From contig CAMOCO010000005.1 of NCBI GenBank assembly GCA_946610715.1, positions 1 through 35,466 of the forward strand: 35,466 nt of DNA. The letters are read 5' to 3'. Made by a program: the position numbers and the translations under genes. How positions within the stretch are numbered: position 1 is the stretch's first letter; every line of letters begins with the position of its first letter. Under the pieces are notes generated by a model. It was not told the origin of the DNA. It searched no databases and worked only from the letters and a program-made list of their open reading frames with translations. The DNA is from an uncultured Clostridia bacterium (lineage in GTDB: Bacteria > Bacillota > Clostridia > Lachnospirales > Lachnospiraceae). This document shows, piece after piece, positions 4,146-33,437 of the stretch.

Positions 4146-4412
4146 ACCACGCGGCCGATCCTCGAAATGATTCAATAAGCGTTACCTTGGCAGTTAACTC
4201 AGCCCAGGCACCCTCACGGCGCACAGAGAAATCCTGCTTAGTGCTGCTTTGTTCCCAACCTGACACGGTTCACAGGCACCTGTCGCGTAAGACCCAAACA
4301 TCAACATCACTTACCAAGGGCAGCCCTACTAAACCACCCCTCAAACCAGCCATCACCCCTGCTGTAGCGGATTGCAGGTACAGGGCACCGCTAACTCCCC
4401 GGCTGCGTGGTC
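4146..4412 (-). ncRNA. ffs: Signal recognition particle RNA, large (Alu-containing) Firmicutes type
   Basis: Minus strand reads ACCACGCAGCCGGGGAGTTAGCGGTGCCCTGTACCTGCAATCCGCTACAGCAGGG...GTGTCAGGTTGGGAACAAAGCAGCAC...GGGTGCCTGGGCTGAGTTAACTGCCAAGGTAACGCTTATT...CGGCCGCGTGGTTTTTA; matches the B. subtilis scRNA layout; complementary 5'/3' ends and 3' T-tract; about 267 nt. Confidence 0.94.
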
Positions 4413-25965: not shown

Positions 25966-26925
25966 CTAAGCCTGGGAACCGCTTAAATCAGAGAATGCAC
26001 TTTCTGAAATCTTAATTGTATTTTCTACTGATTCATTTACGTTAACAAGTGAGTCCTTAAGGTTGCCCAGATATTCACTGATAGAATCAAATTCTTTCTT
26101 AACCGCAGCTCTGTTCTGACGGATTTCTTCTCTGGTAGCAGCCTTCTTAATCTCACATTCCGCTGTAGTCTCATCTCTCAGCTTTGTACACTCTGCTTCT
26201 GTCTCTTCCTTAAGTCTTGTACAATCTTCCTGAGTCTTTGACATCAGATTACTGCAATACTGCTCGGTCTCCTGATTCTTTCTTGCACAAGTCTCATCAG
26301 TCTCCAGATTCAGTCTTTCACATCTTTCCTTTGTCTCTAAACTGAGCTGGTCTGTTTCTTCCTTGGTAACTCTTCTGAGATTGCTGCATTCATTCTCTGT
26401 AGTCTCACGCTGTTCACGACATGACTCATTGGTTTCTTCTATAAGTCTGTTGCATTCTGCCTCAGTAGTATTCCTTAAATTCTCACACTGGGCATTTGTC
26501 TCCTCTATCATCTGCTGACACTGAGCCGTAGATTCAGCTGTCAGTGTCTCGCATTCTTCCCTTGTCTTCCTTGTAAGTTCATCTGCCGACTCTCTTGCAG
26601 CAAGTAATGTTCTTGAAATAGATTCATATCTGGTTGCAGATTCAGAATCTCTCTTCTTATATTCTTCCAGTTCAACCTTCATTTTGGATAATTCGGTTTC
26701 AAGATTCTCATTTACACTTCTGAGATTATCAATGACACTGTCAGACTCGGTCTTATTAACTTCTCTCATTTGCTGAAGTCCCTTAACAGCCTCGCTTAAT
26801 TTTGCTGTGTCTTCCTTCAATCTGGATATCTGCTTCTCATAGTCCTCTCTCTGACCTTCAACATAAGCTTCAACCGCTTTTTTATCATATCCTCCAAATG
26901 ACACTGTCTTGATATCTAAATCCAT
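25966..26925 (-). CDS. DivIVA-like coiled-coil protein with Cys/Thr hendecad repeats
   Basis: N-terminus MDLDIKTVSFGGYDKKAVEAYVEGQREDYEKQISRLKED resembles the DivIVA/GpsB N-terminal motif (F-x-GYD-x-x-x-V); remainder strongly coiled-coil. Confidence 0.82.
   Translation of the reverse strand: MDLDIKTVSFGGYDKKAVEAYVEGQREDYEKQISRLKEDTAKLSEAVKGLQQMREVNKTESDSVIDNLRSVNENLETELSKMKVELEEYKKRDSESATRYESISRTLLAARESADELTRKTREECETLTAESTAQCQQMIEETNAQCENLRNTTEAECNRLIEETNESCREQRETTENECSNLRRVTKEETDQLSLETKERCERLNLETDETCARKNQETEQYCSNLMSKTQEDCTRLKEETEAECTKLRDETTAECEIKKAATREEIRQNRAAVKKEFDSISEYLGNLKDSLVNVNESVENTIKISESAFSDLSGSQA
26110..26571 (-). repeat. 14 consecutive 11-residue (33-nt) protein repeats, consensus xxTxxxCxxLx
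   Basis: Residues 119-272: RKTREECETLT AESTAQCQQMI EETNAQCENLR NTTEAECNRLI EETNESCREQR ETTENECSNLR RVTKEETDQLS LETKERCERLN LETDETCARKN QETEQYCSNLM SKTQEDCTRLK EETEAECTKLR DETTAECEIKK AATREEIRQNR. Confidence 0.95.
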
Positions 26926-27108: not shown

Positions 27109-27825
27109 ATGATATATAAAAAAACAAGAAATAGTATATTGGTCATTCTTTCTCTGATATTACTTCTATGTACAGCGGCCTGTACGGACCAGCGGGAGAC
27201 ACGTTATCAGACCTACGTTGACAGTCTTATAACCGCAAATTATCTAAATGCCTGCGAAGAATATATCCGTGCCACCGGAGCAAATCAGGATGATGCAGAG
27301 GCCATGTATCTTCAAAATGTCACGAGACTTGCCGAGAATCTTGAATCGTATTACGGACTTGAGATTTCATCAGATGTAGAGCTGGCTCCCAGGATGGTGG
27401 AAATATCCAAAAAGATTTACGGAAAAGCACGTTTTAATACCAAGGAAGCATTTAAGGATAATAATATCTATTATGTAGATATTGAGATATATCCCATCGA
27501 CATTCTGAATCAGACACATGATGAGGTTCTTGAATATATTGAGGATTTCAACAGCCGTGTTGAAAAAGGCGAATTTAATAACTACGTTAAGGAAGATTAC
27601 GAACATGAATTCGCATCAGGTATTATAGATATATTGGATGAAGCTTCAGATTCCATGGAATATGCCGATCCCGAAACCGTAAGAGTAAGGATCATTCAAA
27701 GCGATTCAAATTTTTATATCAGCAATGACGATTTCAGAAAAATAGATATGGCAATCCTGTCTACTGACGCTTCCAAATATGAGGAAGCATCTTCTACCGA
27801 TGCTTCGCTCACAGACGCCGAATAA
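27109..27825 (+). CDS. putative lipoprotein of unknown function
   Basis: Signal peptide with lipobox LLLCTAAC followed by TDQRETRYQTYVDSLITANYLNACEEYIRAT...; 238 aa. Confidence 0.85.
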   Translation: MIYKKTRNSILVILSLILLLCTAACTDQRETRYQTYVDSLITANYLNACEEYIRATGANQDDAEAMYLQNVTRLAENLESYYGLEISSDVELAPRMVEISKKIYGKARFNTKEAFKDNNIYYVDIEIYPIDILNQTHDEVLEYIEDFNSRVEKGEFNNYVKEDYEHEFASGIIDILDEASDSMEYADPETVRVRIIQSDSNFYISNDDFRKIDMAILSTDASKYEEASSTDASLTDAE

Positions 27826-27882: not shown

Positions 27883-29232
27883 CTACTGTTCAATATGTCC
27901 TTTAGCTTTAATAACATCTATTACCGAATCAACATATTTCTCACATATCTCATCAGTCTCCGCTTCAACCATTACGCGGATAACAGGCTCGGTACCCGAT
28001 TCACGTACGAGAATACGTCCTGTATCTCCAAGTTCCTCAGCTACCTTTGCAACTGCTGCCTGTACATCAGGATCATTCTGTGCATCCGGCTTACTTTTTA
28101 CACGAACATTCTTCAGTACCTGCGGATAGAATACAACCGGCGCTGCAAGCTCTGACATCGGCTTCTCTTTTGCCAGGAGCACTTCCATCATCTTGATACT
28201 GGTAAGGATTCCGTCACCTGTGGTTGCATACTTTGTAAAGATTATATGGCCTGACTGCTCACCGCCGATACGGTTTCCTGTCTGAACCATGTTCTCATAT
28301 ACATATTTATCTCCGACCTTAGTCTTATCATACTCGATTCCAACCTTATCAAGCGCCTTATAAAGACCGAAATTGCTCATAACAGTTGTAACAACCTTGT
28401 TATTTACGAGCTTTCCTCTTTCCTTCATGTAGAGACCATAGATGTAGAGGATATGATCACCTGTTACCACATTTCCCTTTTCATCTACACAAAGGCATCT
28501 GTCAGCATCTCCGTCATAAGCGAATCCAACATCAAGACCCTTTTCAACTACAAATTTCTGAAGGTGCTCAATATGAGTCGATCCGCAATCTGTATTGATA
28601 TTGTATCCGTCAGGATTATCATTCATTACATATGTCTTCGCACCAAGAGCATCGAATACTCCCTTGGCAATCTGCCATGCTGCACCATTTGCAACATCCA
28701 GTCCGACTTTAACATCTTTAAAACTGTACTTGCTCATGGAAATAAGATAACCTATGTATCGATTACGTCCTGCAACATAATCTACAGTACGTCCAATCTC
28801 ATCCTTTGAAGCAATCGGAACTTCAACCTTACCATCAATATAATCCTCAACCTTAAGGATTGTCTCCTCATCCATCTTCTCACCATTTCCGTTAAGAAGC
28901 TTGATACCATTATCATAATATGGGTTATGGGATGCAGAGATCATAATACCACAGTCAAAGTCATCCACTCTGGTAATATAGGCAACTGACGGTGTAGTCG
29001 TGACATGCATAATATATGCATCTGCGCCGCTGGCCATAAGTCCTGTACAAAGAGCATATTCAAACATATATGAGCTTCTTCTGGTATCTTTACCTATAAC
29101 GATTTTAGCCTTCTTGTTCTGTCTGGCTCCATAATACCATCCGAGAAAACGTCCGATCTGAACAGCATGTTCAAAGGTCAGGTCCTTATTTGCTTCTCCG
29201 CGAAAGCCGTCTGTTCCGAAATATTTACCCAT
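27883..29232 (-). CDS. glmM: phosphoglucosamine mutase
   Basis: MGKYFGTDGFRGEAN, IGKDTRRSSYMFE, GIMISASHNPYYDNGIKL, FAYDGDADRCLCVD, VRESGTEPVIRVMVEA. Confidence 0.96.
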   Translation of the reverse strand: MGKYFGTDGFRGEANKDLTFEHAVQIGRFLGWYYGARQNKKAKIVIGKDTRRSSYMFEYALCTGLMASGADAYIMHVTTTPSVAYITRVDDFDCGIMISASHNPYYDNGIKLLNGNGEKMDEETILKVEDYIDGKVEVPIASKDEIGRTVDYVAGRNRYIGYLISMSKYSFKDVKVGLDVANGAAWQIAKGVFDALGAKTYVMNDNPDGYNINTDCGSTHIEHLQKFVVEKGLDVGFAYDGDADRCLCVDEKGNVVTGDHILYIYGLYMKERGKLVNNKVVTTVMSNFGLYKALDKVGIEYDKTKVGDKYVYENMVQTGNRIGGEQSGHIIFTKYATTGDGILTSIKMMEVLLAKEKPMSELAAPVVFYPQVLKNVRVKSKPDAQNDPDVQAAVAKVAEELGDTGRILVRESGTEPVIRVMVEAETDEICEKYVDSVIDVIKAKGHIEQ

Positions 29233-29233
29233 G

Positions 29234-29896
29234 TTATTTGTCCTCCTTGTGAATTACTTCCCCGTTATCCTTCCAGATAGAATTTTCGGGAACAACTCCC
29301 CTTACACAGGAAGTCGGATATACATTTGAATGGCGGCCTATGACTGTACCGGGATTACATACCGCATTACAGCCAACCTCAACATAATCGCCAAGCATGG
29401 CACCGAATTTCTTGATGCCTGTTTCTACATGTTCAGTCCCATTATGTACTATTACGAGTTTCTTGTCGCTCTTTACATTACTTGTAATACTTCCGGCACC
29501 CATATGACTGAAATAACCCAGAATGGAATCACCTACATAATTATAGTGAGGTGTCTGAACATGATCGAAAAGAATAACATTTTTCAGTTCAACGCTGTTT
29601 CCCACAACACAGTCAGCACCAACCAGTGCCGAACCGCGGATAAATGCCCCATGTCTTACTTCAGTATTCGGCCCGATGATACATGGCTCACCAATATAAG
29701 CAGACGGGAATACCTTCGCAGTCTTATGAATCCAGACATGCTCCGAAACCTCTTCATAATCATCTCCGAGAGTAGGTCCGAGAGAAAGGATTAAGTCCTT
29801 TATCCCCTTTAAAGCCTCCCATGGATATGTAAAGCCTGAAAGATAATCCTTTGCAAGCGTATGGTCAAGATCATACAGATCTGAAATTGTATACAT
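29234..29896 (-). CDS. left-handed beta-helix acyltransferase resembling the GlmU C-terminal GlcN-1-P N-acetyltransferase domain
   Basis: Hexapeptide repeats (VWIHKTAKVFPSAYIGEPCIIGPNTEVRHGAFIRGSALVGADCVVGNSVELKN) and HYNYVGDSILGYFSHMGAGSITSN, comparable to GlmU HLxYLGDAxIGxxxNIGAGTITxN; 220 aa, no NTP-transferase domain. Confidence 0.85.
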   Translation of the reverse strand: MYTISDLYDLDHTLAKDYLSGFTYPWEALKGIKDLILSLGPTLGDDYEEVSEHVWIHKTAKVFPSAYIGEPCIIGPNTEVRHGAFIRGSALVGADCVVGNSVELKNVILFDHVQTPHYNYVGDSILGYFSHMGAGSITSNVKSDKKLVIVHNGTEHVETGIKKFGAMLGDYVEVGCNAVCNPGTVIGRHSNVYPTSCVRGVVPENSIWKDNGEVIHKEDK

Positions 29897-29899
29897 GCT

Positions 29900-30691
29900 T
29901 TACAGCCTCTCTTTCTTCTCGATATCAAGGAAATATTTATATGTATCAACCGTAAGCTCACCGCAGGCAGCTTCATCACAAGCGATGATCGCACCATTAT
30001 GCATCTGAAGAGCACTGCATGTCCACTTGTGACTTACATTTCCTTCTACGGTTGCTGCAAGCGCACGTGCTTTATTATGTCCATTAATAAGTATAAGTAC
30101 TTCCTTGGAATCTGTTACTGTTCCAACACCTACCGAAAGTGCCTGTGAAGGAACCTTCTCCGGATCATTTCCGAAGAATCTTGAATTAACTATACGAGTA
30201 TCTGTTGTAAGATCTCTTACTCCTGTTCTTGAAGAAAGCGATGTAAACGGCTCGTTAAATGCTATATGACCATCAACGCCGATTCCGCCCATAAAAAGAT
30301 CGATTCCGCCGTAGGAAGCGATCTTCTCTTCATAACGTGCACACTCGCCTTCCGGATCATCTGTCATTCCGTTAAGGATATTGATATTCTCAGGTTTCAT
30401 GTCTACAAGATGATTAAAGAAATTGTCATGCATGAAATACCAATAGCTCTGATCATGATCCTTTGGAAGTCCCAGATATTCATCCATGTTGAATGTAACA
30501 ACATTTGCAAAAGAAAGCTCTCCTGCCTGATTCTGGCGTGCAAGCTCCTTATATACACCGATTGGTGATGAACCTGTCGGAAGACCCAGAACAAACGGAC
30601 GGTCCTCTTTATGATTCTTTATTTTAGCTGCAATATAATCAGCTGCCCATTTACACATTTTATCGTAGTTTTCCTGAATTACTACTCTCAT
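29900..30691 (-). CDS. nagB: glucosamine-6-phosphate deaminase/isomerase NagB
   Basis: [100 protein letters not shown]; start at [11 protein letters not shown] (30691). Confidence 0.95.
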
Positions 30692-30755: not shown

Positions 30756-30890
30756 AAAAGAACCTCTGTTACGGTTTTTATTCCGCTTTTTAAATTCCTT
30801 CTGACGATATACCGGTTACCGTGACAGCATCCGCCGAGTCTTTCGACCACTGTCAGCCTCGTCACCCCTGGTATGGGCCCGGCGCTAATA
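30756..30890 (-). ncRNA. glmS-type self-cleaving ribozyme/riboswitch (GlcN6P-responsive) upstream of nagB
   Basis: Minus strand: ATTA|GCGCCGGGCCCATACCAGGGGTGACGAGGCTGACAGTGGTCGAAAGACTCGGCGGATGCTGTCACGGTAACCGGTATATCGTCAGAAGGAATTTAAAAAGCGGAATAAAAACCGTAACAGAGGTTCTTTT. Contains A|GCGCC cleavage site (between 30886 and 30885), TGACGAGG, CTCGGCGGATG, P2 helix TGACAG/CTGTCA, CGCC/GGCG pseudoknot, P3 CGGTA/TATCG, P4 AGAAGGA/TTCTTTT with P4.1 CGG/CCG. Confidence 0.9.
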
Positions 30891-30941: not shown

Positions 30942-30970
30942 ATTATAACATGATTGTTTAAAAAAACCAA
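30942..30970 (-). promoter_or_regulatory. predicted sigma-A promoter for the ribozyme-nagB transcript
   Basis: Minus strand TTGGTT (30970-30965) - 17 nt - TATAAT (30947-30942), about 50 nt upstream of the ribozyme cleavage site. Confidence 0.7.
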
Positions 30971-30995: not shown

Positions 30996-31044
30996 TATAA
31001 AAAATGTCCCTACATGTAGGGTTATCCTGCATGAGGGACATTTC
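30996..31044 (-). terminator. Rho-independent terminator of the 113-aa gene
   Basis: Minus strand AAATGTCCCTCATGCAGGATAACCCTACATGTAGGGACATTTTTTAT, long stem and T-run. Confidence 0.85.
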
Positions 31045-31454: not shown

Positions 31455-33437
31455 TCAGCTAATCATTGAACCTGCAGGTACATCTTTCTCAGCAGTAAGA
31501 AGTGCAAGATTTCCATTTTCATCTTCTGCGCAAAGAAGCATTCCCTCAGATACCACACCGGCAAGTTTTGCGGGTTCCAGATTTGTGATTACAACAACCT
31601 TTTTACCAACCATATCTTCCGGCGAATAATAATTCTTTATTCCGGAAACTATCTGAAGTACACGTCCGGCAACCTGCACCTGTGAGCAAAGCAGTTTCTT
31701 CGACTTCGGAACTTCCTCACAGGAAAGGACTTCACCGATCTGAAGCTGCATCTTGTCAAACTCCTCTATGGTAATCTGCTGCTTTACAAGATTCTCAACA
31801 CTTGTAGGTTCTGTTTTCTCTTCCTTTTTCTCAGCCTTCGGCTCTTCCTTTTCAGGTTCCTTCGGTGGGAATCTCAATGCTATCTCATCAAGCATCTTTG
31901 CTTCATCAACTCTCTGGAAAAGAATTTCAGGTGAATCCGTCACTCTGTTTCCCGAAGGATAAAGTCCAAACTGTCCGAGCTCGGTAACAGCACGTTTTTC
32001 TGTGTTCAGCTGCTTAAGTATCCTCTCACTTGTATCAGGAAGGAATGGTTCAAGAAGAGTTGCACCTATGGTAATGCTTTCCACAAGGTTATAGAGAACC
32101 GTGCTGAGGCGGTCTCTCATATGATCCTCTTTTGCAATAGCCCATGGCATTGTCTCATCAATATATTTATTACATCTCTTAAAGAGATTCCATATTTCCG
32201 TAATGGCATCGGCTACTCTGAGCTTATCCATACACTTATTTACACTAAGTCTCGTTCCGATAACAGTCTTTTTCAGATCTTCATCTATGGCATCATTTGC
32301 TCCGAGGTTTTCGACAAACCCTCCAAAATACTTATTGCTCATGGAAATGGTACGGTTAACCAGATTTCCCAGAACATTTGCAAGATCTGAATTAAATCTT
32401 TCAATCATAAGCTCCCATGATACAACTCCGTCATTTTCAAATGGCATCTCATGAAGAAGGAAATATCTTACAGCATCAACTCCGAAATAGTCTACCATAT
32501 CATCGGCATAGAGAACATTTCCTCTGGATTTACTCATCTTTCCGTCACTTTGAATCAGCCATGGATGACCGAATACCTGCTTCGGAAGCGGAATGTCAAG
32601 TGCCATAAGCATTATCGGCCAGTAGATCGTATGGAATCGGAGAATATCTTTTCCTATAAGGTGAAGATCACATGGCCAGTATTTTTTGAACATCGGATCG
32701 GATTCTCCGTTTGCATGATAACCAAGTCCGGTGATATAGTTGCTGAGTGCATCTATCCATACATATACAACATGCTTCGGATCGAAATCTACCGGAATGC
32801 CCCATTTAAATGAAGTTCTTGAAACACACAGATCCTGAAGTCCCGGCTTAAGGAATGTATTTACCATCTCATTTTTTCTTGATTCGGGCTGGATAAAATC
32901 CGGATTGTCTTCTATATATTTTATAAGCCTGTCTGCATATTTGCTCATTCTGAAGAAATATGCCTCCTCGGATGCGGGCTTTACGGGGCGTCCGCAATCA
33001 GGGCAGCATCCGTCAACCAGCTGTCCCTTGGTCCAGAAGGATTCACATGGAGTACAATACAGTCCTTCATATTTACCTTTATATATATCGCCCTTTTCAT
33101 ACAGCTTTCTGAAAATCGCCTGAATCTCCGCCTCATGATCCTTGTCGGTGGTTCTGATGAATTTGTCATAGGATGTATTCATGAGATCCCATATTCTCTT
33201 AATCTCAGCTGCTCTCTCATCAACAAATTCCTGCGGCGTTGAAAGACTTTCAAATGCTTTTGTCTCAATCTTCTGCCCATGTTCATCGGTTCCTGTCTGG
33301 AATCTTACATCATATCCGATGAATCTTTTATACCTTGCAATACTGTCTGCAAGCACTATCTCATAGGTATTACCTATATGAGGCTTTCCCGAGGCATATG
33401 CTATTGCCGTCGTAATGTAATAAGGTTTCTTTGCCAT
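31455..33437 (-). CDS. metG: methionyl-tRNA synthetase with C-terminal tRNA-binding (EMAPII/OB) domain
   Basis: YYITTAIAYASGKPHIGNTYE, GTDEHGQKIE, CTPCESFW...CCPDCGRP zinc motif, KMSKSRGNV, C-terminal IGEVLSCEEVPKSKKLL...GKKVVVITNLEPAKLAGVVSEGMLL. Confidence 0.97.
   Translation of the reverse strand: MAKKPYYITTAIAYASGKPHIGNTYEIVLADSIARYKRFIGYDVRFQTGTDEHGQKIETKAFESLSTPQEFVDERAAEIKRIWDLMNTSYDKFIRTTDKDHEAEIQAIFRKLYEKGDIYKGKYEGLYCTPCESFWTKGQLVDGCCPDCGRPVKPASEEAYFFRMSKYADRLIKYIEDNPDFIQPESRKNEMVNTFLKPGLQDLCVSRTSFKWGIPVDFDPKHVVYVWIDALSNYITGLGYHANGESDPMFKKYWPCDLHLIGKDILRFHTIYWPIMLMALDIPLPKQVFGHPWLIQSDGKMSKSRGNVLYADDMVDYFGVDAVRYFLLHEMPFENDGVVSWELMIERFNSDLANVLGNLVNRTISMSNKYFGGFVENLGANDAIDEDLKKTVIGTRLSVNKCMDKLRVADAITEIWNLFKRCNKYIDETMPWAIAKEDHMRDRLSTVLYNLVESITIGATLLEPFLPDTSERILKQLNTEKRAVTELGQFGLYPSGNRVTDSPEILFQRVDEAKMLDEIALRFPPKEPEKEEPKAEKKEEKTEPTSVENLVKQQITIEEFDKMQLQIGEVLSCEEVPKSKKLLCSQVQVAGRVLQIVSGIKNYYSPEDMVGKKVVVITNLEPAKLAGVVSEGMLLCAEDENGNLALLTAEKDVPAGSMIS

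Follow-up and report, generated by a model that had tools for sequence, protein, structure and literature searches.

The glmS ribozyme is a self-cleaving RNA for which GlcN6P serves as the cofactor. To our knowledge, it has been described almost only in front of glmS. In a 2011 survey by McCown et al., all but two of 463 copies reportedly preceded this gene. A 35,466-nucleotide stretch from an uncultured member of the Lachnospiraceae (contig CAMOCO010000005.1; hereafter the window, meaning the whole stretch analysed) carries a glmS-type ribozyme in front of nagB; what might such a switch be doing at a gene annotated as a deaminase? The RNA class and the enzyme families involved are already known. 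A literature search, with the main 2011 survey outside its scope, returned no report of a glmS ribozyme with nagB, of one in Lachnospiraceae or of gene displacement. As far as could be checked, two things are new: the conserved linkage of the ribozyme with nagB, and the replacement of glmS by nagB under it.

The covariance model bears out the original prediction of a glmS-type ribozyme at this position. A cmscan search of the window against Rfam matches RF00234 at 30897-30747 (minus strand) with 59.5 bits (E 1.8e-11; gathering score 37); the match is full length, covering model positions 1-167. The elements predicted earlier are all found in the sequence, on the minus strand. A predicted sigma-70-type promoter lies at 30942-30970 (TTGGTT 30970-30965, N17, TATAAT 30947-30942). 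The predicted cleavage site falls between A30886 and G30885 within AGCGCC. The P2 helix (30822-30855; TGACAG 30855-30850 paired with CTGTCA 30827-30822) surrounds the TCGA...TCGGCGGATG core, P3 is formed by CGGTA (30821-30817) and TATCG (30809-30805), and P4.1 by CGG (30785-30783) and CCG (30774-30772). The conserved catalytic core, comprising AGCGCC, GACGAGG and TCGA...TCGGCGGATG, is complete. In its full-length match, cleavage site, core and helices the RNA is like the classic glmS ribozyme, and end-product feedback by GlcN6P is expected; it differs in what follows: in place of glmS there is nagB, alone or in an operon with the acetyltransferase and glmM. The source genome, a 74% complete bin (1.67 Mb, 151 contigs), has no other RF00234 match.

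The minus-strand order is metG (31455-33437), an ORF of 113 aa, a hairpin resembling a terminator of the upstream gene (30998-31043; TGTCCCT/AGGGACA, then a T run), the promoter, the ribozyme, nagB (29900-30691; 263 aa), LbH (29234-29896) and glmM (27883-29232). LbH is the name used here for a stand-alone GlmU-type acetyltransferase with a left-handed beta-helix. Beyond glmM lie a small lipoprotein-like gene (27109-27825, plus strand) and a DivIVA-like gene (25966-26925, minus strand); these two and metG are syntenic neighbours in sibling species, metG upstream and the DivIVA-like gene downstream. The first gene after the ribozyme is nagB, and there is no glmS anywhere in the window. As originally predicted, none has been overlooked between ribozyme and nagB, which starts at 30691 with zero intervening genes.

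Both partners of nagB point towards amino-sugar synthesis. GlmM, the phosphoglucosamine mutase, scores 544.4 bits against TIGR01455 (cut-off 447.55). LbH resembles the acetyltransferase half of GlmU, of the archaeal type, and its nearest solved structures are 5z09 and 2ggo; as a half-length protein it falls below the whole-protein cut-offs of the curated GlmU families. Like the C-terminal acetyltransferase of ST0452 it is predicted to form a left-handed beta-helix, and the equivalents of H308, Y311, N331 and K337, to which we assign the roles they presumably have in ST0452, are kept. It differs from ST0452 in standing alone, in having Ile at the K340 position and in that its activity is predicted from sequence. 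This group has a split GlmU: no full-length GlmU was found in the 17 genomes tested, and the window's genome has GlmU only as the uridylyltransferase (N-terminal) half (G000:C42 2496-3245); LbH therefore plausibly supplies the acetyltransferase step. A GlmR/YvcK-like gene adjoins the ribozyme-nagB unit in two relatives (L177 5782-6735 and L202 2059-3006). In B. subtilis, GlmR/YvcK promotes GlmS-dependent peptidoglycan synthesis (PMC6171935).

The linkage of ribozyme and nagB is conserved across the family. A covariance search finds RF00234 in 74 of 397 family genomes; 59 of these ribozymes precede glmS, 13 precede a nagB/LbH/glmM unit and 2 are cut at contig ends. NagB is found in 230 of the same 397 genomes when the window's NagB is used as the query. 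The window type (74-100% identity) occurs in 14 of them, 13 of which have the ribozyme before nagB or its operon. Only the ordinary type, with identity of ~47% or less (mostly 38-47%), occurs in the other ~216, and none of the 74 family ribozymes precedes a nagB of that type. The ribozyme thus goes with one NagB subfamily.

Within this subfamily the gene order varies. Ribozyme-carrying units are arranged as nagB-LbH-glmM, LbH-nagB-glmM, LbH-glmM-nagB or nagB alone, and the ribozyme stands on nagB without adjoining LbH or glmM in L078, L104, L171, L177, L186, L190 and L197. The order glmS-ribozyme-LbH-nagB-glmM occurs in G230 (L072), and the ribozyme also lies between glmS and LbH in L184; in these two loci cleavage could detach glmS from the downstream part of the transcript, unless a promoter intervenes. 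A Clostridiales-1 sRNA (RF01699) is found at L189 1342-1508, upstream of a ribozyme-LbH-glmM-nagB unit.

Named relatives give a similar picture. These comprise 80 loci from GTDB genomes, 79 of them tabulated, with the ribozyme sought up to 3 kb upstream. Where NagB is at least 83% identical to that of the window, 38 of 53 loci have the ribozyme and 15 have none in the locus; the figures are 1 of 7 at 75-82% identity and 0 of 19 below. In four ribozyme-free relatives there is no remnant even at a lax threshold. Most named relatives are rumen metagenome bins; Ruminococcaceae bacterium P7 (L162) is listed as an isolate strain. Whether the ribozyme was gained once was examined on the NagB tree, which has little depth and poor branch support. 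A contig labelled Flexilinea (Chloroflexota; L203) encodes a NagB of 86% identity together with glmM and without a ribozyme; this may reflect horizontal transfer or mis-binning.

The window's own genus documents the exchange of the regulated gene. The ribozyme is present in 55 of its 61 genomes, and most copies precede glmS. Six fetched loci (L309, L313, L317, L320, L324 and L325) have the arrangement ribozyme-glmS-LbH-glmM; the window, G449 (L323) and G432 (L328) have ribozyme-nagB-LbH-glmM. LbH and glmM in these loci are 90-98% identical to those of the window, whether the locus is of the glmS or the nagB type. The flanks are also common to both arrangements, with metG before and lipoprotein-like, DivIVA-like and PAS-type genes and MreB after. 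Five of the 61 genomes have nagB (the window's, G449, G432, G407 and G418). The first four have ribozyme-nagB and no ribozyme-linked glmS; nearly all other genomes of the genus have ribozyme-linked glmS and no nagB. At the same locus, G418 has glmS-nagB-LbH-glmM with no ribozyme or remnant, even at a lax threshold. nagB has taken over the glmS slot in a ribozyme-controlled operon, at the same locus and among the same neighbours. A gene swap at a fixed locus with the switch unchanged is a natural experiment which predicts the direction of a reversible enzyme.

The RNA has been maintained next to its new partner. The comparison covers 50 distinct nagB-linked ribozymes with the core pattern, a few further copies that do not fit the pattern being excluded. 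GACGAGG is kept in 50/50 and TCGGCGGATG is exact in 40/50; P2 is fully paired (6/6) in 50/50, with 12 different pair sequences. Since the core is invariant and P2 is intact in 12 pair variants, the nagB-linked RNA is probably working. All 14 loci of named relatives checked with the Rfam covariance model exceed the gathering score (38-71 bits); the low scorers among them are L202 and L158, at 38-39 bits. In G257 (L108, ~918-1340) a ribozyme with only 30.1 bits precedes a truncated nagB, and the unit seems to be decaying there.

The NagB of the window is a well-conserved member of its family, scoring 379.7 bits against TIGR00502 (cut-off 236.9). The comparison with E. coli NagB uses what we take to be its sequence, numbering and allosteric-site residues. 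The two types share fold family, length and active-site residues; D72, D141, H143, E148, R172 and K208 are kept in 51/51 ribozyme-linked NagBs. They differ at the GlcNAc6P allosteric site, where R158, K160, S151 and T161 are replaced (mostly R158G, K160R, S151T and T161D/N), and in the biosynthetic-looking operon and regulation of the window type. The allosteric changes were considered as a mark of ribozyme control and rejected as non-specific; they are common to many related NagBs without a ribozyme, and for this reason are compatible with, and not diagnostic of, a biosynthetic NagB. Searches for the catabolic partner nagA gave no hit in G229 or G257 (97-99% complete), in G154 or in the window's genome (74% complete), and no more than weak partial matches in G230, G298 and G167. 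The gene is present in six other carriers and absent from the fetched flanks of ribozyme-nagB loci.

These features favour a biosynthetic NagB which would convert Fru6P and NH3 to GlcN6P under product feedback. Net synthesis is suggested by the position of nagB in the glmS slot and by its partners, GlmM and a GlmU-type acetyltransferase. It is also favoured by loci in which nagB has kept the ribozyme although LbH and glmM lie elsewhere, by the lack of a nagA hit in several near-complete carriers and in the flanks of ribozyme-nagB loci, and by the GlmR-like neighbours in L177 and L202. The original prediction had argued for a biosynthetic role from regulatory logic; the glmS slot, the operon partners, the ribozyme-nagB linkage and the nagA pattern lend this support at the level of sequence.

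Synthesis by a NagB has a precedent, since the Giardia GlcN6P deaminase, likewise of the NagB family, makes GlcN6P from Fru6P and ammonia and is not modified by GlcNAc6P (PMC4281351); the same direction is suggested here. Unlike the window NagB, the Giardia enzyme belongs to a eukaryote, acts at the first committed amino-sugar step at encystment and has no ribozyme. Against synthesis, the NagB of Akkermansia shows no GlcN6P formation at physiological levels, with a Km for NH4 of 41 mM (PMC5902328). The NagB reaction is reversible and its constant is about 0.2 M (PMC11593775). With a constant of this size, amination requires high ammonia and a strong downstream pull. Ammonia in the rumen is in the millimolar range. 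Further points against the biosynthetic reading are the glmS that carriers retain, the nagA of six of them, and the lack of a ribozyme at 15 of 53 close NagB relatives and in G418.

The sequence comparisons show the ribozyme with its conserved core, its linkage to nagB and the replacement of glmS. It is likely, on all of this, that the ribozyme controls the nagB-acetyltransferase-glmM operon and that NagB works mainly in the aminating direction under end-product repression. We infer that cleavage, net amination and mRNA decay would be connected as follows. NagB would run mainly from Fru6P and NH3 to GlcN6P, GlmM and the acetyltransferase would take GlcN6P on to GlcNAc-1-P, and the uridylyltransferase encoded elsewhere would complete UDP-GlcNAc. 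At high GlcN6P the ribozyme would cleave its own mRNA before nagB; the fragment with a 5'-OH would then be degraded, resulting in end-product repression. In Bacillus, the 5'-OH cleavage product is degraded by RNase J, and RNase J is present in 8/8 genomes tested.

The same operon could be read with NagB as an ordinary catabolic deaminase which is a passenger, the ribozyme serving glmM and the acetyltransferase. The TIGR00502 score well above cut-off, the nagA of some carriers and the biosynthetic genes of the operon fit this reading. It is nevertheless improbable: nagB sits in the glmS slot and keeps the ribozyme before it when LbH and glmM are elsewhere, and several near-complete carriers yielded no nagA. 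Moreover, a ribozyme on an aminating NagB gives end-product repression, whereas on a deaminating NagB the substrate would repress its own deaminase, which is self-reinforcing. NagB is similarly improbable as a two-way Fru6P/GlcN6P buffer set by ammonia and GlcN6P, with the ribozyme limiting total enzyme at high GlcN6P and no fixed direction. Reversibility (PMC11593775) and the presence of glmS in carriers agree with a buffer; net synthesis is indicated by the partners of nagB in the operon and by its having replaced glmS.

Two further explanations concern the RNA and the assemblies. Low scores, such as that beside the truncated nagB in G257 and those of L202 and L158, would suit a ribozyme that decayed after its glmS was lost and no longer regulates nagB. 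A relic of this kind is very unlikely given the full-length match in the window, the survival of the linkage through changes of gene order, and the invariant core and P2 pairing kept by compensating changes in 50/50 copies. An artefact of assembly or binning comes to mind as the window and most relatives are metagenome-assembled genomes. It has a negligible chance of being correct and was rejected, since the linkage recurs in ~40 separate assemblies with several gene orders, one record (L162) is of an isolate strain, and synteny is conserved inside the genus.

If NagB is mainly aminating, as preferred here, its relation to GlmS has to be considered, because carriers of ribozyme-nagB also have glmS and NagB is thus not strictly needed. 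The earlier impression that glmS is absent holds for the window but not for its genome, where a copy truncated at a contig end lies on a different small contig (C146); the idea that the genome lacks glmS was rejected on account of this fragment. The glmS copies of carriers group in a clade of their own (100/100 support) and share ~50% identity with the ribozyme-linked type. For 20 copies of this clade, the genome or contig also has a window-type nagB, and none of them is preceded by a ribozyme; one copy with a ribozyme occurs in G260, whose NagB is exclusively of the other type. The 5' end of the window genome's own glmS is cut and its leader unreadable; the fragment is 67-69% identical to the separate clade versus ~50% to the ribozyme-linked type.

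In many carriers the separate-clade glmS adjoins GlnA, PyrG, AsnB, GuaA, PurF and a response-regulator-like protein. The fragment in the window's genome (G000:C146, L341, 1-2901) likewise has downstream neighbours resembling a glutamine synthetase and a response regulator, the latter of the same type. This neighbourhood looks like a glutamine-use regulon. Since the carriers' glmS neighbours glutamine-using enzymes, a glutamine route through GlmS is proposed beside an ammonia route through NagB, and the share of each enzyme may depend on nitrogen supply. The chances are about even that this mostly rumen Firmicutes clade has two nitrogen-dependent routes to GlcN6P, with NagB fixing free ammonia under the taken-over glmS ribozyme and locus, and glutamine-dependent GlmS in glutamine clusters. 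If true, amino-sugar synthesis would have its own equivalent of the choice between GDH and GS/GOGAT.

The glmS ribozyme has been treated as a one-gene regulator and an antibacterial target; here it is found clade-wide on a non-homologous enzyme. If NagB does aminate, it would constitute an ammonia-fixing entry to bacterial cell-wall synthesis, and annotations that equate NagB with a deaminase would misdirect metabolic models of these genomes. Elsewhere in the window, a large bacterial SRP RNA lies at 4147-4410 on the minus strand (175.8 bits).
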